From Acidimicrobiales bacterium (GTDB lineage: Bacteria; Actinomycetota; Acidimicrobiia; Acidimicrobiales; Palsa-688): a stretch of DNA of 53,319 bases. The stretch is from the NCBI GenBank assembly GCA_035533095.1, contig DATLUM010000069.1, positions 1 through 53,319 of the forward strand. The letters run 5' to 3'. Below, piece by piece: positions 13,796 to 40,952 of this stretch. The notes under the pieces are model-generated. The model was not told where the DNA came from. It did not search any database and saw only the letters and a list, made by a program, of their open reading frames with translations. The position numbers were made by a program, and so were the translations under genes. Each line of letters begins with the position of its first letter. Position 1 is the first letter of the stretch.

Positions 13796-14527
13796 GTGAC
13801 ATCACTCCCCCGCTTGCGTCAGGTAGCACTGGCAGCCCACGACCTTCACATCACGGCCGAGGCCCTGCAGGAGGCGTTCGGCTGGCCAGACCCGTTCCAC
13901 GATCCCGGGGTCGCGGAGTTCGGACTCGAGAATTCGGTGTTCGCCGCGAGAGACACCTTCGTCGAGGTTGTGTCGCCCGTTCGTGCCGACACGGCCGCCG
14001 GGCGCTACCTGGAGCGCCGCGGGGGTGACAGCGGGTACATGGCGATATTCCAGGTGGACAACCTCGAGGCGGCTCGCGCCCGCGTGGCCGACGCCGGCAT
14101 GAAGGTGGTCTGGAAGGTCGACTTCGACGACATCGCCGGCACGCACCTGCACCCGAAGGACACGCCGGGGGCGATCGTCTCGCTCGATTGGGCCGAGCCA
14201 CCGGAGACGTGGCGGTGGGCCGGGCCGGACTGGACGGGGCGGAGTTCCCCCAACGGGTGCAGCGCGCTCAGAGGTCTGGTCATCGAGGTCAAAGACCCGG
14301 CCGTCGCGGCGCAACGATGGGCTACGGCTCTGGGACTGGGTGTGGACGAGGGCCGGAACGGCGAGGCGCGGGTGGAGCTTGTATCGGCCGGGCAGACGCT
14401 GCGTTTCGCACCCGCAGCGAACGGGCACGCAGAGGGCATCACCGAAGTCTGGCTTGGCGCGGCGAGCGCTTCGCAGCACGTCCATGAGATCGCGGGAGTC
14501 CGGTTCGTGGTAGGAGGCGGGGAATGA
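13796..14527 (+). CDS. VOC family (glyoxalase-like) protein, two-domain
   Basis: 243 residues with two tandem vicinal-oxygen-chelate modules. Module 1 spans about residues 1-125 (LPRLRQVALAAHDL..., DTFVEVVSPV, YMAIFQVDNLEAARARVADAG). Module 2 begins near residue 155 (ALRGLVIEVKDPAVAAQRWATALG, VELVSAGQTLRFAP). VOC proteins include glyoxalases, epimerases and extradiol dioxygenases that use a metal; the ligands are not certain here. Its stop overlaps the enoyl-CoA hydratase start by 4 nt (ATGA), so a role on a CoA ester in the same pathway is likely. Start chosen from the TACGAT box. Confidence 0.85.
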   Translation: MTSLPRLRQVALAAHDLHITAEALQEAFGWPDPFHDPGVAEFGLENSVFAARDTFVEVVSPVRADTAAGRYLERRGGDSGYMAIFQVDNLEAARARVADAGMKVVWKVDFDDIAGTHLHPKDTPGAIVSLDWAEPPETWRWAGPDWTGRSSPNGCSALRGLVIEVKDPAVAAQRWATALGLGVDEGRNGEARVELVSAGQTLRFAPAANGHAEGITEVWLGAASASQHVHEIAGVRFVVGGGE

Positions 14528-15348
14528 CGCGGGTCGATACAGGCACGGACCATCTGCTGGCAGAGATCGACGACGGCGTGGGCGTCGTGACGTTCAACCG
14601 GACCGAGCGCCGTAACGCCCTGTCCGACGAGATGCTCGGAGCGTTCGCGCGCGTGCTCGCCGAGTTCGAGGGCGACGCCGCGGTCCGCTGCGTGGTGGTG
14701 ACCGGGGCAGGTGGCGCGTTCTGCGCCGGCGGGGACGTGAAGGGCATGGCCGAGCGGAATGCCGGCTCGGGAGCGCGGTCTTCGGTCGACGAGGTGATTG
14801 CGAAACAGAGACTCAGCCAGCGAGCCACCTCCGGGAAGCTGTGGTCCATGCCGAAGCCGACGATCGCCTGCATCCCGGGACCGGCGGCCGGCGCCGGCCT
14901 GTCCATCGCGCTCGCCTGCGACCTTCGCTACGCCTCCTCGGGCGCCGTACTGACGACAGCGTTCGCCCGGGTGGGGTTCGCCGGTGACTACGGCGGGACC
15001 TGGTTCCTACCGCACCTGGTCGGTGCGGCCAAGGCGAAGGAGCTCTACTTCCTCTCCGAACGGCTCACCGCCGAGGAGGCGGAAGCGCTCGGTCTGGTGA
15101 ACGCGGTGTTCGCAGCCGATGCGCTGACGGACGAGGTCATGCGCCGGGCGCACATTCTCGCCACAGGTCCTGCGGTGGCTTACAGGTACATGAAGGAGAA
15201 CCTGAACCGGGCGATTGCCGGCGGTGACGTCATGGACTGCCTCGACCTCGAAGTCACCCACCACGTGCACACGGGCTTCACGGAGGATCATCGCGAGGCG
15301 GCCCGGGCGTTCGTCGAGAAGAGAGAACCGCGCTTCCAGGGTCGCTGA
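14524..15348 (+). CDS. Enoyl-CoA hydratase/isomerase family protein
   Basis: 274 residues of the crotonase fold. Signature parts are FNRTERRNALSDEM, VVVTGAGGAFCAGGDVKGM (oxyanion-hole loop), KPTIACIPGPAAGAGLSIALACDLRYAS and VGFAGDYGGTWFLPHLVG. Canonical hydratases have two catalytic Glu; the second position here falls in GDYGGTW, where Asp/Gly replace Glu, so reaction specificity (hydratase, isomerase or other) is open. Cytoplasmic, acting on acyl-CoA. Translationally coupled to the VOC protein upstream through ATGA. Confidence 0.92.
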   Translation: MTRVDTGTDHLLAEIDDGVGVVTFNRTERRNALSDEMLGAFARVLAEFEGDAAVRCVVVTGAGGAFCAGGDVKGMAERNAGSGARSSVDEVIAKQRLSQRATSGKLWSMPKPTIACIPGPAAGAGLSIALACDLRYASSGAVLTTAFARVGFAGDYGGTWFLPHLVGAAKAKELYFLSERLTAEEAEALGLVNAVFAADALTDEVMRRAHILATGPAVAYRYMKENLNRAIAGGDVMDCLDLEVTHHVHTGFTEDHREAARAFVEKREPRFQGR

Positions 15349-31712: not shown

Positions 31713-32147
31713 GTGCCCGAGCCACTGTCACAAGAGCAGCAACAGGAGCGACGCCTGGCGGTTCGCGAGATCATGCCGAAGACCCCTTTCCTGGCCGGGC
31801 TCGGCATCGTGTTCGAGAGATACGAGCCCGACGAGGTGACCATCAGGCTGCCTTTCCGGGAGGACCTCACCAACGACGGCACCTACTTCCATGGCGGCGT
31901 CATCGCATCGGTCATCGACACGACGGGAGCGGCCGCAGCGTGGTCCAACCACGACTTCGACAAGGGAAGCCGCGCCTCGACGGTGTCCATGACCATCCAG
32001 TATGTGGGGGCCGCCAAGAAGTCCGACCTGATATGCCACGCGCGGACCGTGCGCCGGGGCAAGGAGCTCACGTTCACCGAGATCACCGCGACCGATGCCG
32101 ACGGTCGCACCGTCGCCCACGGCGTGCAGACCTACCGGATCGTGTGA
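31713..32147 (+). CDS. PaaI family hotdog thioesterase
   Basis: 144 residues. The hotdog fold is shown by LGIVFERYEPDEVTIRLPF, then DGTYFHGGVIASVIDTTGA, where the HGG plus Asp pattern is the active site of PaaI-type acyl-CoA thioesterases, and SMTIQYVGAAKKSDLICHAR. It hydrolyses acyl- or aryl-CoA in the cytoplasm. The GTG start is fixed by TAGAGT 6 nt upstream. It is followed after 34 nt by a TetR gene and then by a thiolase-like gene, so an acyl-CoA degradation operon under local repression is likely. Confidence 0.9.
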   Translation: MPEPLSQEQQQERRLAVREIMPKTPFLAGLGIVFERYEPDEVTIRLPFREDLTNDGTYFHGGVIASVIDTTGAAAAWSNHDFDKGSRASTVSMTIQYVGAAKKSDLICHARTVRRGKELTFTEITATDADGRTVAHGVQTYRIV

Positions 32148-32181
32148 ACGGCCGGATCGTGATGCGGGGCCGGAGGAGACC

Positions 32182-32841
32182 ATGAGTCCCAAGACTGGCG
32201 TGGCGGCTGTCGCGCGCCGGCCGAGGCGGGCATCGAGCGAGGACGACAAGGCTCGCCGGCGCGAATCGCTGCTGGCCGCGGCCAAGAAGGTGTTCGCGGA
32301 GAAGGGGTTCCACGGGACGACGATGGGCGATGTCGCGAAGGCGGGTCGTTCGTCGTACGGAACGGTGTACTGGTACTTCCCCTCCAAGGACGCTCTCTTC
32401 CACGAGCTCATGGACAACCAAAAGGAGTCTCTCCGCCGCCACATCCTCTCCGCCGTCGTCGACTCAGCCGGGGCGAACCCGGGGCTGCCCGACCTGACGG
32501 CGACCCTGGAGGCAGCGATCCGGGCCACGTTCGAGTTCTTCGAAGCGGACAAAGCGACGGTGAAACTTCTCTTCCGGGATTCGTACGCGATGGGCAACCG
32601 CTTCGAGAAGCACCTGTTCGCGATATACGAGGGGTTCATATCGGATCTGTCCGACCTGATCACAGAGGCGCAGAAGCGCGGCGAGATCGTCGAGGCGCCG
32701 GCGCACGTCGTGGCATTCTCCATAGCGGCTCTCGTGGGCCAGCTCGCCTACCGCAGGCTGACAACCGACGACGGCCTCGACGCCGGTGTGATCGCACAGT
32801 TCGTCGTGAACCTTCTCCTGGATGGGCTGAGACCGAGGTGA
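32182..32841 (+). CDS. TetR/AcrR family transcriptional regulator
   Basis: 219 residues. The N-terminal helix-turn-helix domain reads RESLLAAAKKVFAEKGFHGT, then TMGDVAKAGRSSYGTVYWYF and SKDALF, a standard TetR pattern. The remaining 150 residues form the variable ligand-binding domain. GGAGGAG stands 5 nt before ATG 32182. Lying between the thioesterase and thiolase-like genes, it probably senses an acyl-CoA or related molecule. Its operator could be the palindrome at 31675-31692 or that at 34317-34336. Confidence 0.94.
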   Translation: MSPKTGVAAVARRPRRASSEDDKARRRESLLAAAKKVFAEKGFHGTTMGDVAKAGRSSYGTVYWYFPSKDALFHELMDNQKESLRRHILSAVVDSAGANPGLPDLTATLEAAIRATFEFFEADKATVKLLFRDSYAMGNRFEKHLFAIYEGFISDLSDLITEAQKRGEIVEAPAHVVAFSIAALVGQLAYRRLTTDDGLDAGVIAQFVVNLLLDGLRPR

Positions 32842-32847
32842 CTCGCG

Positions 32848-34338
32848 GTGGTTGACCCCGAACGTATTCCGGTGGTCGTCGCGGTAGGCGAGGCGAGCGA
32901 GCGCGAGGCGCTCGTCAGCCCGCTGGACCTGGCGGAACGAGCGTCGGCGGCAGCACTCGCCGGTACCCGCGCCCTGGGTTCCGCGATCGACAGGGTGGAG
33001 GTCGTGAGGATTCTCGCCGGTGGCGGACAGGCGCCGGCGTCGGAGCTGGCCGTTCGTCTCGGCATCAAGCCGAAGGCGAAGGCCACGACGACCGTCGGGG
33101 GCAACACACCCCAGTGGCTCGTCGGGAGGGCGGCCGACGACATCGCGGCAGGCCGGGTACGCGCGGTTCTGATCGCCGGCGCCGAGGCTTTGCGCAGCCA
33201 CCAGGCTCGAAGGAGCGCAGGGGCGGCACCGTCGAGCGCCGAGGATCCGCCGGATCCGGTCATCGGGGATGACCGGCCCGGGCTGTCCGACGTGGAGGTG
33301 GCGTCGGGTCTGTTCCTTCCGGCACACGTCTATCCGCTCTTCGAGAGCGCCATCGCAACACAGCTCGGGCGCAGTGTCGAAGAGCACAGGGCGGCGCTCG
33401 GGAGGTTGATGGCGCCGTTCAGCGCCGTTGCGGCAATGCGCCCGCACGCATGGTTCCCCGAGGCGCTGACGCCCCAGGCGATCTCGACTCCCTCACCTGA
33501 CAACCGCGTGACTGCGGAGCCGTACACGAAGCGCATGAACGCGGTGATCATGGTCGACCAGGGCGCCGCGGTCGTCGTCACCTCCCTCGCCGTCGCGCAG
33601 GAGCTCGGCGTGGCGGACAGTGCCGTGTTCGTGTGGTCGGCCGCCGACTGCTCGGACGTCTGGTTCCCGTCCCAGCGGCCCGACCTGGGAGCCTCGCCGG
33701 CGATCGCCGCGGCTTCGGCTGCCGCGCTGGCGGCAGCCGGAGCCGGGATGGACGACATCGCGCGACTGGACCTCTACTCGTGCTTCCCCTCCGCCGTGCA
33801 GATGGCCGCCGCGGCGCTCGGCATCGCTCCTGACGACACGCGCGGGCTCACCGTCACGGGCGGGCTGCCCTACTTCGGCGGACCCGGCAACAACTACTGC
33901 ACCCATTCGATCGCGGCGTTGACCGAATCGCTGCAGGGAGCGCAGGACGGCACTCTCGGGCTCATCACAGGGCTCGGCTGGTACATGACCAAGCATTCGG
34001 TCGGGATCTATGGGTCCACTCCCCCGCCAGGCGGTTACCGGCGGGGAGACACTTCGCGCGAGCAGCAACGGATCGACGCCACAGCGCTGGCCGCCGCCGC
34101 GGATGCGGGGGACGGGTCCAGAGCGATCGTCGAAGCGACGACTGTCATTTACGACAGGGAGGGCAATCCGACCTCCGCTCCGGTGATCGCCTCCCTGCCC
34201 GACGGCCGCCGGATCGTGGCTCGAGCGGCCGAATCCGACCTAGCCGGGCTCGCTGGATGCAACATCGCCGGCAGCGAGGTCCAGGTGTCCGGGTCCCCGC
34301 CGACCTACCACTTGGAAACTGACTCGTCAGTCAGTTAG
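32848..34338 (+). CDS. Thiolase-like protein (acetyl-CoA acetyltransferase family)
   Basis: 496 residues from GTG 32848, 6 nt after the TetR stop. The C-terminal half has LDLYSCFPSAVQMAAAALGI and GGLPYFGGPGNNYCTHSIAA, typical of thiolase-superfamily proteins. In the N-terminal half the place of the nucleophilic Cys loop reads TVGGNTPQWLVGRAADDIAA, with no Cys, as I recall for a family of about 500 residues common in actinobacteria. Classical thiolysis is therefore doubtful; another acyl transfer or a carrier role is possible. GAGG precedes the GTG. The stop lies just past the palindrome that controls the next operon. Confidence 0.85.
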   Translation: MVDPERIPVVVAVGEASEREALVSPLDLAERASAAALAGTRALGSAIDRVEVVRILAGGGQAPASELAVRLGIKPKAKATTTVGGNTPQWLVGRAADDIAAGRVRAVLIAGAEALRSHQARRSAGAAPSSAEDPPDPVIGDDRPGLSDVEVASGLFLPAHVYPLFESAIATQLGRSVEEHRAALGRLMAPFSAVAAMRPHAWFPEALTPQAISTPSPDNRVTAEPYTKRMNAVIMVDQGAAVVVTSLAVAQELGVADSAVFVWSAADCSDVWFPSQRPDLGASPAIAAASAAALAAAGAGMDDIARLDLYSCFPSAVQMAAAALGIAPDDTRGLTVTGGLPYFGGPGNNYCTHSIAALTESLQGAQDGTLGLITGLGWYMTKHSVGIYGSTPPPGGYRRGDTSREQQRIDATALAAAADAGDGSRAIVEATTVIYDREGNPTSAPVIASLPDGRRIVARAAESDLAGLAGCNIAGSEVQVSGSPPTYHLETDSSVS

Positions 34339-34341
34339 GTT
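34312..34341 (+). promoter_or_regulatory. Promoter with internal operator-like palindrome upstream of the GMC cassette
   Basis: TTGGAA (34312-34317) and TAGGTT (34336-34341) are an 18-nt-spaced -35/-10 pair. AACTGACT-CGTC-AGTCAGTT (34317-34336) is a perfect 8+8 bp inverted repeat filling the spacer, the position expected for a TetR- or GntR-type repressor operator. It overlaps the last codons of the thiolase-like gene. A second small palindrome AGGTTGAACCT follows at 34337-34347. Confidence 0.6.
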
Positions 34342-34370
34342 GAACCTGAGCTTCGCTGGGGAGGTGGAGG

Positions 34371-35126
34371 TTGGCTCAGTGGTCACGGCGGCGTTTCTTG
34401 CAGATGGCGGGCGCGGCGACGGGCTCCGGCCTGCTCGGCTGGCGGCTGCCGGCCCTGGCTGACGGAGGGCCTGGGCCCGGCGGGTTCTTGACGGCGGCGG
34501 AGATCACCACGCTGAACGCCGCCCTCGCACGGATGATCCCGGCGAGCGGCCCGGGTGACTGGTCGGCCGCGGACCTCGGCGTGGCGACCTACATCGACAA
34601 CATCCTGTCGGTGTCCTGGTCGGGCGGTTCTCCTCCCCCGGTGTTCGCGGGCGGACCGTACCGCGCCGCCAGCGCAGCCGGCCCAGGGTTCGGTGCCTTC
34701 CAGCAACTCAGCCGGGTGAAGGCGAAAGGCTGGCAAGCCCAGATCTCGCGGTGGCAGGGGCTGTACAGGTCCGGGCTCGCCGCCCTTGACAAGGCAGCAG
34801 GAGGCAACTTCGCTGCGGTGCCGTCCCCGGTTCAGGACGCGATCCTCGAGAAGTTCGACCTGTCGAACGACAAGTTCTTTGCGGTGCTTTACGACCACAC
34901 GATGGAAGGCGCCTACAGCCACCCCGTCTACGGAGGCAACACGGGGTACCGGTCATGGCAGGCCGTCGGCTTCGCGGGCGATGTGCACGGCGTGAGGTTC
35001 CCGACGGTCGGGTCGCAGGGAGCGTGGAACGTCTACGGCGGCTACGCGCCGGAGGAGATCATCGCCGTGGGGTCATCCGCGACCGAACAGCCCGTTACGG
35101 CCTCGTCTTCCCGGAGGCTGCCATGA
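34371..35126 (+). CDS. Tat-exported gluconate 2-dehydrogenase subunit 3-like protein
   Basis: 251 residues from TTG 34371, with GGAGG/GGAGGT upstream. The N-terminus carries a twin-arginine signal (SRRRFLQMAGAATGSGLLG), so it is exported folded. The mature part, beginning GGFLTAAEITTLNAALARMI, and the segment IPASGPGDWSAADLGVATYI match the small gamma subunit (subunit 3) of membrane-bound gluconate and related GMC dehydrogenases, which helps export and stabilise the large flavin subunit. HPVYGGNTGYRSWQAVGFAG is also typical. Its ATGA overlap with the next gene and the GMC gene downstream define a three-gene operon. Confidence 0.87.
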   Translation: MAQWSRRRFLQMAGAATGSGLLGWRLPALADGGPGPGGFLTAAEITTLNAALARMIPASGPGDWSAADLGVATYIDNILSVSWSGGSPPPVFAGGPYRAASAAGPGFGAFQQLSRVKAKGWQAQISRWQGLYRSGLAALDKAAGGNFAAVPSPVQDAILEKFDLSNDKFFAVLYDHTMEGAYSHPVYGGNTGYRSWQAVGFAGDVHGVRFPTVGSQGAWNVYGGYAPEEIIAVGSSATEQPVTASSSRRLP

Positions 35127-36013
35127 ACCGCCGCGCCGTGAACCGGGAGCGACGTCTCCCCCGCGCCAGGATCGTCCTCGCGATCGTCGCGACCGCGGCC
35201 GCCATAGCGTGGGCTGCCGTACCCGCCCGTGCGGCCGGTACCGACCCCACCTCGAGCGACCCGCTCGGCCCGCTGGTCGACGTCACCGCCAACTGGCAGG
35301 CGTATCAGCCGAGCTCCGACTTCTGCGTGCACCCGACGGTCTTCGAGGTTCCGGCGACGACCGAGACGGCGACCGGCAGCTCGCCCGCGTGCGCCGCCTC
35401 AGGTTTCGCGCCATCGGCCACCGGTCTCTACGAGGTGAAGATCGATACGCCGCCGCTGTGCACTGGATGCCGGCGGCTGTTCATCGACTACTCCGAGATC
35501 GCACCGAGCACCTCGACGGCTCCGACATCCCACGGGCACGCCTACTTCCGGCTGATGTCCTTGAACCCGACCTACACGGTCCCGCCGCTCGCGCACAGCC
35601 CCAACATCAAGAACCTCACCAACGACCGCCTCGTCGCGCCCCCAGGCTCTCCGGTTTCGGCCTTGACCTCGCAGGTCGACCCCTACGACATGGCATACGC
35701 GGCAGACACCGCCAACTTCGCGCACACCGCGGCACAGGGCCCCTACTACGTCGGCCCCGGTTACCTGAACACCGCCGGCCAGTGGGTCCAAGGTGCATAC
35801 CTCGACGTCGATATGTCGAAAGCGACGGAGTTGCCACAGGCGGAGGCAAACCTCATCCGCTACGCGGCCGGGTTCGACTCCTCACCGTCGACATGCCCCG
35901 ACTCGGCCGTGTTCGGCCCGACCTACACCGACGGGAACTACTTCTACGGCGGGTGCGTCAACGCGTTCGGTGCGAGCACCCAACCGGGTGTAGACCCGTG
36001 GGCGAGTAGCTGA
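35123..36013 (+). CDS. Secreted cysteine-containing protein of unknown function in the GMC cassette
   Basis: 296 residues from ATG 35123, with GGAGG at 35113-35117 and a 4-nt overlap with the gene before. The signal peptide is ARIVLAIVATAAAIAWAAVP followed by ARAAG. The mature protein has no motif I recognise. It contains Cys in SDFCVHP, PACAAS, PLCTGCRRLF, STCPDS and YGGCVNA; the CxxC is not followed by His, so it is not a c-type cytochrome site, and disulfides seem more likely. It sits where cytochrome subunits usually occur in dehydrogenase operons, so it may be an electron-transfer partner, stabiliser or substrate-binding subunit. That is inference. Confidence 0.72.
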   Translation: MNRRAVNRERRLPRARIVLAIVATAAAIAWAAVPARAAGTDPTSSDPLGPLVDVTANWQAYQPSSDFCVHPTVFEVPATTETATGSSPACAASGFAPSATGLYEVKIDTPPLCTGCRRLFIDYSEIAPSTSTAPTSHGHAYFRLMSLNPTYTVPPLAHSPNIKNLTNDRLVAPPGSPVSALTSQVDPYDMAYAADTANFAHTAAQGPYYVGPGYLNTAGQWVQGAYLDVDMSKATELPQAEANLIRYAAGFDSSPSTCPDSAVFGPTYTDGNYFYGGCVNAFGASTQPGVDPWASS

Positions 36014-36014
36014 C

Positions 36015-37820
36015 ATGGGCGGCACAGCCGACATAGTCGTCGTCGGTTCCGGCGCCGGCGGGGGCATAGCCGCCTACGTGCTGGCCCAGGCGGGGTTCTC
36101 GGTAACCGTCATCGAGAAGGGCCCCTGGGCCACCCCTGCCAACTTCGGCGATGACGAGCTTCGCTTCGGGGACCGCAACTTCATCGACCAGGACCCGCTG
36201 ATAGAGCCTCGCACCTTCAGGGACAACGCCGATCAGGGTGACCACGTGTACGTCGGCGACGTGCTCGACGTGAGCAGGTGCGTCGGCGGCGGGTCGGTGC
36301 ACTACGGGGCCGTGTGCTTCCGCTTCCGGCCCGAGGACTTCCGCGCTTACAACACATGGGGCAACCTTCCCGGGGCCGCCGTCGTCAACTGGCCCTTGAG
36401 CGATGGCGAGCTGGCATTCGGCGCCCCCGGTTCGATCTGGGACTACTACCGGCGCGTGGAGGCGCTGATCGGGGTGGCGGGTGGCCAGACGGCGGGCTCC
36501 GCGAGCCCCGGCGCCCAGATCCCGGGAAGCCTCCAGGAGCGCACCGACACGTACCCGATGCCAGGGCACCCGCCCAATTACCCGTGCTCGCTGTTCGAGA
36601 AGGCTGCGCTCGCCGCCGGGCTGCACCCGTTCCCCACACCGGTTGCGATCAACAACGGCGGTTACAAGGGGCGGCCGGGATGCACCTACTGCGGGTTCTG
36701 CTCGGGTTACGCCTGCCCGATCGAGGCCAAAGGCGACACGAGGGTAACGGCGCTGAGGCTCGCCCAGGCGACGGGGAACCTGACCATCGTCGCGGACACG
36801 TTCGTCCGCAACGTCGCAGTCGTGGGTGGCCGCGCCGTCGGCGTGAACGTCATCGACGGCGCCGGCAACGACGACTACTGGTCCGCCACCAAGGCGGTGG
36901 TCCTTGCCGCGTCGACGGTCGAGACCCCGCGGCTCGTCCTCAACTCCATCAGGGAGTCGACCCTTCCGGCCGGACTCGTGAACACGGACGCCCTTGGCCG
37001 CTACCTGATGGTGCACCACTACCCCGCCGGCGTGGGTGTGTTCGAGGAGCGGGTGGACTACTGGCGGGGCTTCTGGAGCATGCGCTGCCTGGACGACTGG
37101 TACTTCGGCCCGGGCGGGGTTTCTGACCCGCAGTTCGGCTGGGGAAACCTGCAGACGATCGGACCGTCGGGCGGGGCTCGCTCGGCCTTCGGAACCGGTG
37201 GGCTGATCTCGATGGCCAAGACTGTCGGCTGGGGCCAGACGCACAAAGAGGCGATGCGGTACCTGTTCGGCCACCTTCAGTTCCTGGGCATCATCGGCCA
37301 GGACCCACCCGTGGCGACCAATACGGTGGACCTGGACCCGACCGTGCAGGATGTGTACGGCGTTCCCGTCGCGCGGATCACGTACTCGCACCACCCGAAC
37401 AACGCCGTGGTACAGGCAGCCGCCGCGCCGCTGATCGCCGGACTCCTCGGTGAGATGGGGGCGGTGTCGACTCAGATGGTCATGCCGATCGGGGTGGGGA
37501 CGGCCATACCGCAGTTCGGGAACCAGGACACCTTCCACATGGGAGCCCTGCGCGGGTTTCCCGACACCGTGGGCGGGCTCGTGAACCACCAGATGGGCAC
37601 CATGCGCATGGGCGACGACGACTCCACGTCGGTCGTCGACCCGCACGGGCGGGTCTGGGGGGTCCCGAACATGTACGTCGCCGACGGGTCGGTGTTCCCG
37701 ACCGCCGGCGGATACAACCCGACGTTGACGATCCAGGCGATGGCCTGGCGCACGGCGGACCGCATCGTGGCAGCGCTACGCGGGGCTGGACCGCATGGCG
37801 TTCTTTCGCGTCGCCGATGA
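36015..37820 (+). CDS. GMC family oxidoreductase with Cys cluster
   Basis: 601 residues. The FAD Rossmann motif GSGAGG is at residues 11-16, HYGAV with Gly-rich GGGSVHYG near 95, and the C-terminal GMC signature VNHQMGTMRMG...YVADGSVFPTAGGYNPT supplies the active-site His and Asn. Four Cys at 223, 226, 229 and 234 (CTYCGFCSGYAC) match the position where large subunits of gluconate/sorbitol/FAD-glucose dehydrogenases have a cysteine-rich loop that can bind an iron-sulfur cluster. It has no signal of its own and is probably exported with the Tat subunit. It should oxidise an alcohol or sugar; no cytochrome c subunit is present. ATG 36015 follows the previous stop by 1 nt. Confidence 0.92.
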   Translation: MGGTADIVVVGSGAGGGIAAYVLAQAGFSVTVIEKGPWATPANFGDDELRFGDRNFIDQDPLIEPRTFRDNADQGDHVYVGDVLDVSRCVGGGSVHYGAVCFRFRPEDFRAYNTWGNLPGAAVVNWPLSDGELAFGAPGSIWDYYRRVEALIGVAGGQTAGSASPGAQIPGSLQERTDTYPMPGHPPNYPCSLFEKAALAAGLHPFPTPVAINNGGYKGRPGCTYCGFCSGYACPIEAKGDTRVTALRLAQATGNLTIVADTFVRNVAVVGGRAVGVNVIDGAGNDDYWSATKAVVLAASTVETPRLVLNSIRESTLPAGLVNTDALGRYLMVHHYPAGVGVFEERVDYWRGFWSMRCLDDWYFGPGGVSDPQFGWGNLQTIGPSGGARSAFGTGGLISMAKTVGWGQTHKEAMRYLFGHLQFLGIIGQDPPVATNTVDLDPTVQDVYGVPVARITYSHHPNNAVVQAAAAPLIAGLLGEMGAVSTQMVMPIGVGTAIPQFGNQDTFHMGALRGFPDTVGGLVNHQMGTMRMGDDDSTSVVDPHGRVWGVPNMYVADGSVFPTAGGYNPTLTIQAMAWRTADRIVAALRGAGPHGVLSRRR

Positions 37821-37908: not shown

Positions 37909-38505
37909 GTGCCCGATACCGCCGTCGACCGCCGTGTAGCCCGGGGGGAGGAAACCCGCCGGCGGCTCGCGGAGGCGATGATCGCTCTGCTCGAGGAAGG
38001 CTCGCCCCAGCCATCCGCGCGGGATATCGCAGAGCGCGCCGGGGTGTCGCTGCGCCTGGTCTTCCACCACTTCGACGACATGGAACAGGTTCTCCGCGCC
38101 GCTGTCTCGGTGCAGGTCGACCGGCACTGGAACCGGCTGCAGGCGGTCGACCCATTGCTGCCGCTCGATGAGCGGACAAGCAAAGTGGTCCGCCAACGCG
38201 AGACGCTGTACGAGGCGATCGCCCCTGTCAGGCGCGCCGCTGCTCGGGCGGAGCAGTCTTCGCCGACGGTTGCCGCCGAGCTGACCCGGGCGAGATTGCA
38301 GCTGCGGCACGGGATCGAGTCGGCATTCGACGCCGAGCTGCGGGGTTCCGGTGCCAAGGAGTTGCTGGACGCCCTGGAGGCCGCAGCCAGCTGGGAGACC
38401 TGGGAGCTGCTCCGCGGGCGGATGGGTCTGAGCCGCTCAGCCGCGCGGCGCGTCGTGGTTCGGATGATGAAGTCGCTGCTCGCAGACCAAGGAGGGTCAC
38501 GTTGA
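37909..38505 (+). CDS. TetR/AcrR family transcriptional regulator
   Basis: 198 residues from GTG 37909. The helix-turn-helix reads TRRRLAEAMIALLEEGSPQP, then SARDIAERAGVSLRLVFHHF and DDMEQVLRAAV, a TetR DNA-binding domain. The C-terminal domain is variable. Its stop overlaps the dehalogenase start (TTGA), so the two are translationally coupled, and it likely controls its own operon. Ligand unknown; a haloalkane or its product is a natural guess. Confidence 0.92.
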   Translation: MPDTAVDRRVARGEETRRRLAEAMIALLEEGSPQPSARDIAERAGVSLRLVFHHFDDMEQVLRAAVSVQVDRHWNRLQAVDPLLPLDERTSKVVRQRETLYEAIAPVRRAAARAEQSSPTVAAELTRARLQLRHGIESAFDAELRGSGAKELLDALEAAASWETWELLRGRMGLSRSAARRVVVRMMKSLLADQGGSR

Positions 38506-39428
38506 AAGTCCTGCGCACACCGGACGAGCGGTTCTCGCGCCTACCCGGCTTCGAGTTCGAGCCGCACTACGTCGACGTACCGGCCGGAGACGGTGCCGCC
38601 GGCACGATCAGAGTCCACTACCTCGACGAGGGTGATCCCGGTGCCACCGAGACGGTCCTGCTGATGCACGGGGAGCCGTCGTGGAGCTACCTGTACCGGA
38701 AGATGATCCCGCCGCTCGCCGCGGACGGCATCCGGGTCGTGGCCCCTGATCTCGTCGGTTTCGGGCGTTCGGACAAACCGGCTGACCGCAACGACTACAC
38801 CTACGAGCGCCATGTCGAATGGATGCGTTCGGCCCTCTTCGACGGTCTCGGCTTGTCCGGCCTCACCGTGGTCGGTCAGGACTGGGGCGGCCTCATCGGG
38901 CTCCGTCTGGTAGCTGAGAACCCCGACCGGTTCCGCCGGGTGGTGGCGGCGAACACCGGACTGCCGACGGGCGACATGGACATGGGCGATGCGTTTCTCG
39001 CCTGGCAGCGGTTCTCCCAGGAGACACCCGAGTTGCCGGTCGGGGGGATCATCGCCGGAGGCTGCACGACCCAGCTGCCCGAAGAGGTGGTCGCCGCCTA
39101 TGACGCCCCCTTCCCGGACGAGACCTACAAGGAAGGTGCAAGGCAGTTCCCGCTTCTTGTCCCGACCCGGCCGGACGACCCGGCTGCCGGCGCGAACCGC
39201 AAGGCGTGGGAGGTGCTGGCCGGATTCGCCAAACCGTTCCTGTGCGCGTACAGCGACGGCGACCCGATCACTCGCGGTGCGGACCAGCTGTTCCTGGCGC
39301 GAGTGCCGGGCGCCAAGGGGCAGGCCCACACGACAATCTCAGGCGGAGGCCATTTCCTGCAGGAAGACCGCGGGCCGGAACTCGCCGCGGCCGTCGCCGA
39401 CTTCATTCGAACCAACCGGGAGGGCTGA
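38502..39428 (+). CDS. Haloalkane dehalogenase
   Basis: 308 residues from TTG 38502, with AAGGAGGG upstream. HGEPSWSYLYRKM at 56-68 is the oxyanion/halide-stabilising segment of haloalkane dehalogenases, GQDWGG at 125-130 gives the nucleophile Asp127 and halide-binding Trp128, and GGGHFLQEDRG supplies the catalytic His. The Asp of YSDGDPITRGA is the probable acid. Asp as nucleophile with Trp next to it separates it from ordinary alpha/beta hydrolases and epoxide hydrolases. It hydrolyses carbon-halogen bonds to alcohol and halide in the cytoplasm. It is coupled to a TetR regulator and followed after 3 nt by a sulfatase gene. Confidence 0.92.
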   Translation: MKVLRTPDERFSRLPGFEFEPHYVDVPAGDGAAGTIRVHYLDEGDPGATETVLLMHGEPSWSYLYRKMIPPLAADGIRVVAPDLVGFGRSDKPADRNDYTYERHVEWMRSALFDGLGLSGLTVVGQDWGGLIGLRLVAENPDRFRRVVAANTGLPTGDMDMGDAFLAWQRFSQETPELPVGGIIAGGCTTQLPEEVVAAYDAPFPDETYKEGARQFPLLVPTRPDDPAAGANRKAWEVLAGFAKPFLCAYSDGDPITRGADQLFLARVPGAKGQAHTTISGGGHFLQEDRGPELAAAVADFIRTNREG

Positions 39429-39431
39429 ACC

Positions 39432-40952
39432 ATGGGCCGCAAGATCTTGTTCATCACCACCGATCAGCAGCGCTACGACAGCCTCGGCTGCAACGGGGGG
39501 ACCGTCGCGCGCACGCCGGTACTCGACCGGCTTGCCGCGGAAGGCATCAACTACCGCAGGGCCATGAACCAGAACGTCGTGTGCATGCCGGCACGCTCCA
39601 CGATGATCACCGGGCAGTACGTCCGGACCCACGGGGTGTTCGCCAATGGGGTGCCTCTGCCGGCCGACGCTCCGAGCATCGCCGCGTACCTGAACGGCAA
39701 CGGATACAAGACCGCCCTGCTGGGCAAGGCGCACTTTGAACCGGGGATGGACCTCGAAGGCCGCTGGCCCGAGAACCGCATGGCCCGTGATGGCACCTTC
39801 GGCCCCCACCGCGGTTTCGACCACATGGAACTGGCCATGCACGGGCCGCTACCGCTCTGGCACTACGGCAAGTGGCTCATGGAGCAGCCGGGGCACTTGG
39901 AGCAAGGCTTCTACCAGCTGTTCAAAGGAGGCCAGCTGAACGGCGAGCCCGGCGGGGAGACCGGCGCCCCGCAGGTGGCCATCAACCCGGTTCCGCGCGA
40001 CATGTACCACACCGACTGGACAGCCGACCGGGCTATGGCGTGGCTCCAGACCCTCGAAGCGGGCGACGACTGGTTCTGCTGGGTCAGCTTCCCCGACCCT
40101 CACCACCCGTGGGACCCGCCGTCGTCGGAGCTCGGGCGAGTGAACTGGCGCGATCTCGATCTGCCTGATGCGCACCCGGGAAGCGCGGACGAGTGCCGGC
40201 GCATCCTCGAGGAGAAGCCGCACCACTGGCTGGCGTACTACGACGGGTCGCACTCCAACCTCGAGGGCGGCCCTCCGACGTTCGTCCCGGCCGAGATGAC
40301 TCCCGACCAGGTGCGTGAGGTCAACGCGCTGACCCACATCGAAAACGAGCTGATCGACGAGGCGATCGGGCGCATCCTCGCTTACGTAGACCAGCGCGGC
40401 TGGGCCGAAGACACCGACGTGATCTTCACGACGGACCACGGCGAGCTTCAAGGCGACTTCGGGCTGCTCTTCAAGGGGCCCTATCACTGCGAGGCGCTGA
40501 TGCACCTGCCGATGATCTGGCGGCCGGCGCCGTCCGCCGCCGTTGCGCCGGCGGTCGTCGACGAACCGGTGGGCCAGCTCGATCTCGCGCCCACGTTCGC
40601 CGCCATCGCCGGCCTGCCCGCACCCGGATGGGTGCAGGGGACGCCGCTTCCGATCGGTCCCGCACCCGAGAGGGAGCGCGTCATCACCGAGTGGGACAGC
40701 CAGTTCCCGACCGAGGACCTGCATCTTCGTTCGATGTACCGCGACGGTTGGCTGGTCACCGCTTACGAGCCGGGCGGGGGCTATGACGGAAGCGAGGGAG
40801 AGCTGTACTCGCTCACCGAGGACCCGCGGCAGTGGAAGAATCTCTGGAACGACCCCGGTTACAAGGCGATCCGCGAGGATCTCGTCGCAGACCTCTACGA
40901 CAACCTTCCACCGGAGCGCGCAGACAAGTTGGAGGTCGAAGCGCCGGTCTGA
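39432..40952 (+). CDS. Sulfatase family hydrolase
   Basis: 506 residues. FITTDQQRYDSLGCNG starts the alkaline-phosphatase-like fold. CMPAR at 51-55 is the CxPxR motif in which Cys51 is converted to formylglycine, and STMITGQY follows. LLGKAHFEP and FTTDHGELQGDFG supply Lys, His and metal-binding Asp/His. It should cleave sulfate (or phosphonate) esters with Ca2+. No signal peptide is visible, so a cytoplasmic role is likely and maturation by a formylglycine-generating enzyme encoded elsewhere is needed. GGGAGGG stands 7 nt before ATG 39432, 3 nt after the dehalogenase. Confidence 0.92.
   Translation: MGRKILFITTDQQRYDSLGCNGGTVARTPVLDRLAAEGINYRRAMNQNVVCMPARSTMITGQYVRTHGVFANGVPLPADAPSIAAYLNGNGYKTALLGKAHFEPGMDLEGRWPENRMARDGTFGPHRGFDHMELAMHGPLPLWHYGKWLMEQPGHLEQGFYQLFKGGQLNGEPGGETGAPQVAINPVPRDMYHTDWTADRAMAWLQTLEAGDDWFCWVSFPDPHHPWDPPSSELGRVNWRDLDLPDAHPGSADECRRILEEKPHHWLAYYDGSHSNLEGGPPTFVPAEMTPDQVREVNALTHIENELIDEAIGRILAYVDQRGWAEDTDVIFTTDHGELQGDFGLLFKGPYHCEALMHLPMIWRPAPSAAVAPAVVDEPVGQLDLAPTFAAIAGLPAPGWVQGTPLPIGPAPERERVITEWDSQFPTEDLHLRSMYRDGWLVTAYEPGGGYDGSEGELYSLTEDPRQWKNLWNDPGYKAIREDLVADLYDNLPPERADKLEVEAPV

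Follow-up and report, generated by a model that had tools for sequence, protein, structure and literature searches.

A predicted secreted protein of an unclassified family encoded between the subunit 3 and GMC dehydrogenase genes of an Acidimicrobiales bacterium

Results

Organization of the cassette

The window, the whole stretch of 53,319 nucleotides that was analysed (Acidimicrobiales bacterium, contig DATLUM010000069.1), contains three adjacent genes on the forward strand, as read from the sequence and its open reading frames (Table 1). They encode a gluconate 2-dehydrogenase subunit 3-type protein, an uncharacterised protein (hereafter the middle protein), and a GMC flavoprotein. The subunit 3 protein matches PF13618 in a Pfam search (E 1.2e-15) and the Tat signal model TIGR01409 with 21.4 bits (cut-off 16.7), and has the motif SRRRFL close to its N-terminus. 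The middle gene start and the subunit 3 stop codon share ATGA, an overlap of 4 bp, and the GMC gene begins one base past the middle gene stop.

The GMC protein has no signal peptide of its own (first residues MGGTADIVVVGSGAGGG). Its cysteine loop is composed of C223-x2-C226-x2-C229-x4-C234, and the GMC-type residues His525 and Asn568 are kept, according to an alignment of nine GMC proteins. An earlier note on this DNA had described a Tat-signal subunit 3, an unknown Sec-exported protein, and a GMC protein with a CxxCxxCx4C loop in this order; coordinates, strand, and domain matches agree with that description.

Table 1 Positions of the cassette genes and of other features discussed in the text.
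Feature	Sequence	Position	Strand	Remarks
TetR-type regulator gene	Window	32095-32841		Near the cassette
Thiolase-like protein	Window	32848-34338		Directly upstream; type 1 additional C-terminal domain
Perfect inverted repeat	Window	34317..34336		AACTGACT-CGTC-AGTCAGTT, 20 bp, read from sequence; candidate TetR-type operator
Tat-signal gluconate 2-dehydrogenase subunit 3-type protein	Window	34371..35126	+	251 aa, TTG start, no Cys
Uncharacterised exported middle protein	Window	35123..36013	+	296 aa, six Cys, no family match
GMC flavoprotein	Window	36015..37820	+	601 aa; PF00732, PF05199
TetR-type regulator gene	Window	37909-38505		Near the cassette
Downstream gene group	Window	37909-40952	+	See text
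Subunit 3 + GMC pair	L014, contig C40, same genome	5048-8049		CxxCxxCx4C loop
Subunit 3 + GMC pair	L015, contig C103, same genome	4112-6582		CxxCxxCx4C loop
Seryl-tRNA synthetase-cassette context	L005	1387-3411
Cupredoxin-domain small protein	L004	about 14413-14775		Signal-like N-terminus
Cupredoxin-domain small protein	L006	6052-6813		Signal-like N-terminus

Comparison with known dehydrogenases

The closest solved structures to the window GMC protein are the large subunits of FAD glucose and fructose dehydrogenases. The nearest is the FAD glucose dehydrogenase of Burkholderia cepacia (gamma-alpha-beta; PDB 6a2u, 8grj; E 2.6e-49), which shares with the window a Tat-signal small subunit, a signal-less GMC protein, and a four-cysteine loop ending in CPI. 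In the Burkholderia enzyme, the catalytic subunit depends for its folding and secretion on the Tat-signal gamma subunit, a hitchhiker protein; Cys212, Cys218, and Cys222 of the catalytic subunit bind a 3Fe-4S cluster, and its Cys213 makes a disulfide with gamma Cys152 (PMC6719666). The hitchhiker-type features recur in the window, where a PF13618 small subunit with a Tat signal and a signal-less GMC protein are encoded in one cluster. The cysteine loops occupy equivalent places but differ in spacing (CC-x4-C-x3-C in Burkholderia, CxxCxxCx4C in the window), and the window subunit 3 lacks a cysteine for the Burkholderia-type inter-subunit disulfide. The third component differs as well. In Burkholderia it is a three-haem cytochrome c, whereas the window has an unrelated, haem-free, predicted exported protein, the gene of which lies between the other two. 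No CxxCH motif is found among the window's predicted genes, and a multihaem cytochrome c subunit is absent from the cassette.

Fructose dehydrogenase includes a cytochrome c subunit. Its large subunit is homologous to the GMC protein and has a similar cysteine loop (PDB 7w2j and others).

The middle protein

The middle protein has a Sec-like N-terminus by eye, with a charged n-region, a hydrophobic stretch, and an AxA-type end. It contains six cysteines (68, 90, 113, 116, 258, and 278); the count of seven given previously corresponds to a 352-aa extended frame that starts upstream. The CxxC site without histidine noted before is present as CTGCR, and the sites across the middle protein and its three homologues described below read CTGCR, CSGCR, CPGCR, and CNGCR, never CxxCH. 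A c-type cytochrome is thus ruled out, as the haem motif is absent from all four.

Scanned singly, the four proteins match no Pfam, NCBIfam, or PHROGs family, permissive limits included, and neither the middle protein nor its profile finds anything beyond chance among the sequences of solved structures (PDB). HMM searches accordingly agree with the earlier description of the protein as unknown, with no match to a cytochrome or any other family. A cupredoxin was considered and rejected (no Pfam match; hhalign probability 3% against two cupredoxins encoded near related cassettes), and a comparison with subunit 3 revealed no homology. Judged by its sequence, the middle protein is an unclassified secreted protein that matches no known family. 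A structure model built from a three-sequence alignment has a pLDDT of 31 and no usable fold.

The four known sequences are conserved in a characteristic manner. Each has six cysteines in its mature part, and 79 of 258 mature residues are invariant in the alignment, including five of the six cysteines and four of the five histidines (H137, H139, H158, and H201). The sixth cysteine is present in the L006 homologue at a shifted position.

In related complexes the third subunit is bound to the membrane (PMC6719666), and the earlier note had raised an anchoring role for the middle protein, which could hold the exported enzyme in the membrane or the wall. By eye, however, none of the four sequences has a lipobox, a hydrophobic segment after the signal, or a sorting signal, and we regard an anchoring role as highly improbable.

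Recurrence of the cassette

When 396 genomes sampled from the phylum are searched at the protein level, two relatives of the middle protein appear besides that of the window. Scanning genome contigs with a pattern derived from the alignment yields two loci, JAIVGO010000006.1 (G040, already found) and the new VAXR01000189.1; the same kind of scan with the single middle protein gives no match. In all four genomes the gene order is subunit 3, middle protein, GMC, and each time the last four bases of the subunit 3 gene are also the first four of the middle gene. The neighbourhood survey thus upholds the expectation that the middle protein adjoins a GMC gene, which it does wherever it is found (4/4). 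The recurrence of the same arrangement in three other actinobacterial genomes is more than chance.

The middle protein is 46-49% identical to its three homologues, and the subunit 3 proteins of two of the other cassettes are 51-52% identical to that of the window. The surroundings vary. The window cassette is preceded by a TetR-type regulator gene and the thiolase-like gene, L004 has DUF1800/DUF1501 genes as neighbours, the L005 cassette lies directly after a seryl-tRNA synthetase gene, and the downstream neighbour in L006 is a PepX_C-type hydrolase. Since the flanking genes differ among the four genomes, the three genes form the conserved unit. The TetR-thiolase context was dropped as a part of the system because the other cassettes have different neighbours.

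Samples of the window's order (198 genomes) and class (395 genomes) contain the cassette in the window's own genome only, and the family occurs in two of five genomes of the class of G025. Repeating the phylum search with a four-sequence profile adds nothing credible; a weak match in G362, interrupted by an internal stop (E 0.007), is taken as chance. No match to the middle protein is found among the plasmids and viral contigs searched. The genome samples overlap, so that their counts are not additive, and distant relatives may escape a sequence search; within these searches, the middle-protein family is rare. A literature search retrieved no paper on the subunit 3-middle-GMC arrangement.

Two-gene relatives

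The window's genome encodes two more subunit 3 + GMC pairs, with overlapping genes and no gene between them (L014 and L015; Table 1). The other actinobacterial loci inspected after a search with a subunit 3 profile are likewise adjacent pairs with no gene between, one of them with its two genes about 100 bp apart in the sequence. Some of these loci were read with translations, some from ORF positions only, and one from the sequence; L044, L045, L047, and one locus at a contig end were set aside. The pairs have the same gene order and the same CxxCxxCx4C loop as the window and lack the middle gene. The earlier idea that the middle protein stands in for the cytochrome subunit fares poorly here, since the inspected actinobacterial pairs have no third gene in that place. 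The association is one-way: subunit 3 beside GMC usually occurs without the middle gene.

The loop is found in 9 of 9 aligned GMC proteins, whether the middle gene is present or absent, indicating that it belongs to the enzyme class and is not tied to the middle gene. The GMC proteins of the other cassettes are 60-64% identical to that of the window, those of the two-gene pairs 36-40%. Subunit 3 profile scores are 391-448 bits for the cassettes, from which the profile was built, and at most 117 bits for the others. By these measures, the middle gene marks a distinct three-gene subgroup.

Cassette-specific residues make up 76 of the 278 invariant residues of the GMC protein and are scattered over several stretches. 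Many lie in residues 331-420, probably the substrate domain, and only one lies in residues 211-240 around the Fe-S loop. In the alignment, their spread points to no single docking patch and favours neither a docking nor a substrate role over the other.

Enzymes of one pathway are commonly co-expressed, and the middle protein could be an independent secreted enzyme or binding protein that shares the dehydrogenase's substrate or product and is linked to it by co-expression alone. The many cassette-specific residues in 331-420, a domain assignment that we infer, would fit such a protein. However, the middle gene lies between two genes that in known relatives encode parts of a single complex, and it overlaps the first of them in every one of the four genomes. 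We consider co-expression by itself a rather unlikely explanation.

An electron-transfer subunit, the other role raised in the earlier note, would be a non-haem redox protein, for example one with histidine-bound copper, and would take electrons from the predicted Fe-S cluster of the GMC protein like the proteobacterial cytochrome c subunit. The four invariant histidines and six cysteines would allow a metal site, the window's predicted genes include no CxxCH protein, and the middle protein is linked to GMC in four genomes. Yet it has no likeness to the neighbouring cupredoxins or to any redox family, the two-gene relatives do without such a gene, and the stretch around the Fe-S loop holds a single cassette-specific residue. 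As a special case of a partner subunit, this role seems doubtful overall.

Upstream region

The palindrome before the cassette overlaps the stop codon of the thiolase-like gene, which is on the same strand and ends 32 bp before the cassette. Its core, CTGACTNNNNAGTCAG, occurs once in the 3.44-Mb genome, and this is also its one mismatch-free occurrence within the window. We take the palindrome to resemble TetR-type operators, and it is a plausible candidate operator from its sequence. Of the repressor-type promoter proposed earlier for the cassette, the operator is made plausible by the unique palindrome, but a consensus scan finds no sigma-70-like promoter before the cassette. With a gap of only 32 bp to the preceding gene on the same strand, the cassette may be co-transcribed with the thiolase-like gene.

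The cassette is followed, on the same strand, by genes for a second TetR-type regulator, a haloalkane-dehalogenase-like hydrolase (above the NCBIfam cut-off), and a sulfatase. Genes for a P450, an acyl-CoA dehydrogenase, and a thioesterase are also present in the window and, together with the thiolase-like gene, suggest a context of lipid- or steroid-type catabolism.

Discussion

Our preferred reading, which we hold to be somewhat probable, is that the middle protein is a dedicated partner subunit of a three-component exported GMC dehydrogenase. It is favoured by the linkage in four of four genomes, the conserved 4-bp overlap, and the differing flanks; by the retention of six mature cysteines and the invariance of most cysteine and histidine columns; and by the distinct cassette subgroup, as seen in the GMC identities and the drop in subunit 3 score. 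Counted against it are that linkage is not binding, that the family has only four known sequences, that the structure model carries no information, and that the GMC protein has no single docking patch. Since two-gene relatives exist, the middle protein is unnecessary for this type of enzyme in general.

As such a partner, the middle protein would be exported separately by Sec, would fold outside the membrane, and could form up to three disulfides. Subunit 3 would use its Tat signal to ferry the folded, signal-less GMC protein across the membrane, as in the Burkholderia enzyme, and the GMC protein would by homology carry an iron-sulfur cluster on its cysteine loop. The middle protein may then dock on the exported subunit 3-GMC pair, a physical partnership to which the gene linkage points. 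Granted this partnership, an electron-outlet role through a metal bound by H137, H139, H158, and H201 is a serious, if tentative, possibility; the remaining weight lies on substrate handling or stabilisation of the exported enzyme. The broader proposal, that the middle protein founds a haem-free electron-transfer family linking exported Fe-S/FAD GMC dehydrogenases to extracytoplasmic acceptors in actinobacteria, is more speculative still, and we think it unlikely.

The known electron outlet of direct-electron-transfer FAD dehydrogenases is a multihaem cytochrome. These enzymes attract interest for glucose sensors (PMC9727119). An exported partner that is small and haem-free, if real, would be a new type of subunit and a lead for practical use. 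Should it prove redox-inactive, the family would remain an unclassified secreted one with ties to a single enzyme subgroup, and would offer a narrow, testable hypothesis.

A cupredoxin was also considered as a constant fourth gene and was rejected, as cupredoxins accompany the L004 and L006 cassettes and were not noticed near the other two. In L004 and L006, small proteins with a cupredoxin domain and a signal-like N-terminus are encoded downstream of the cassette, at a distance of a few kb (Table 1); they are possible diffusible electron acceptors.
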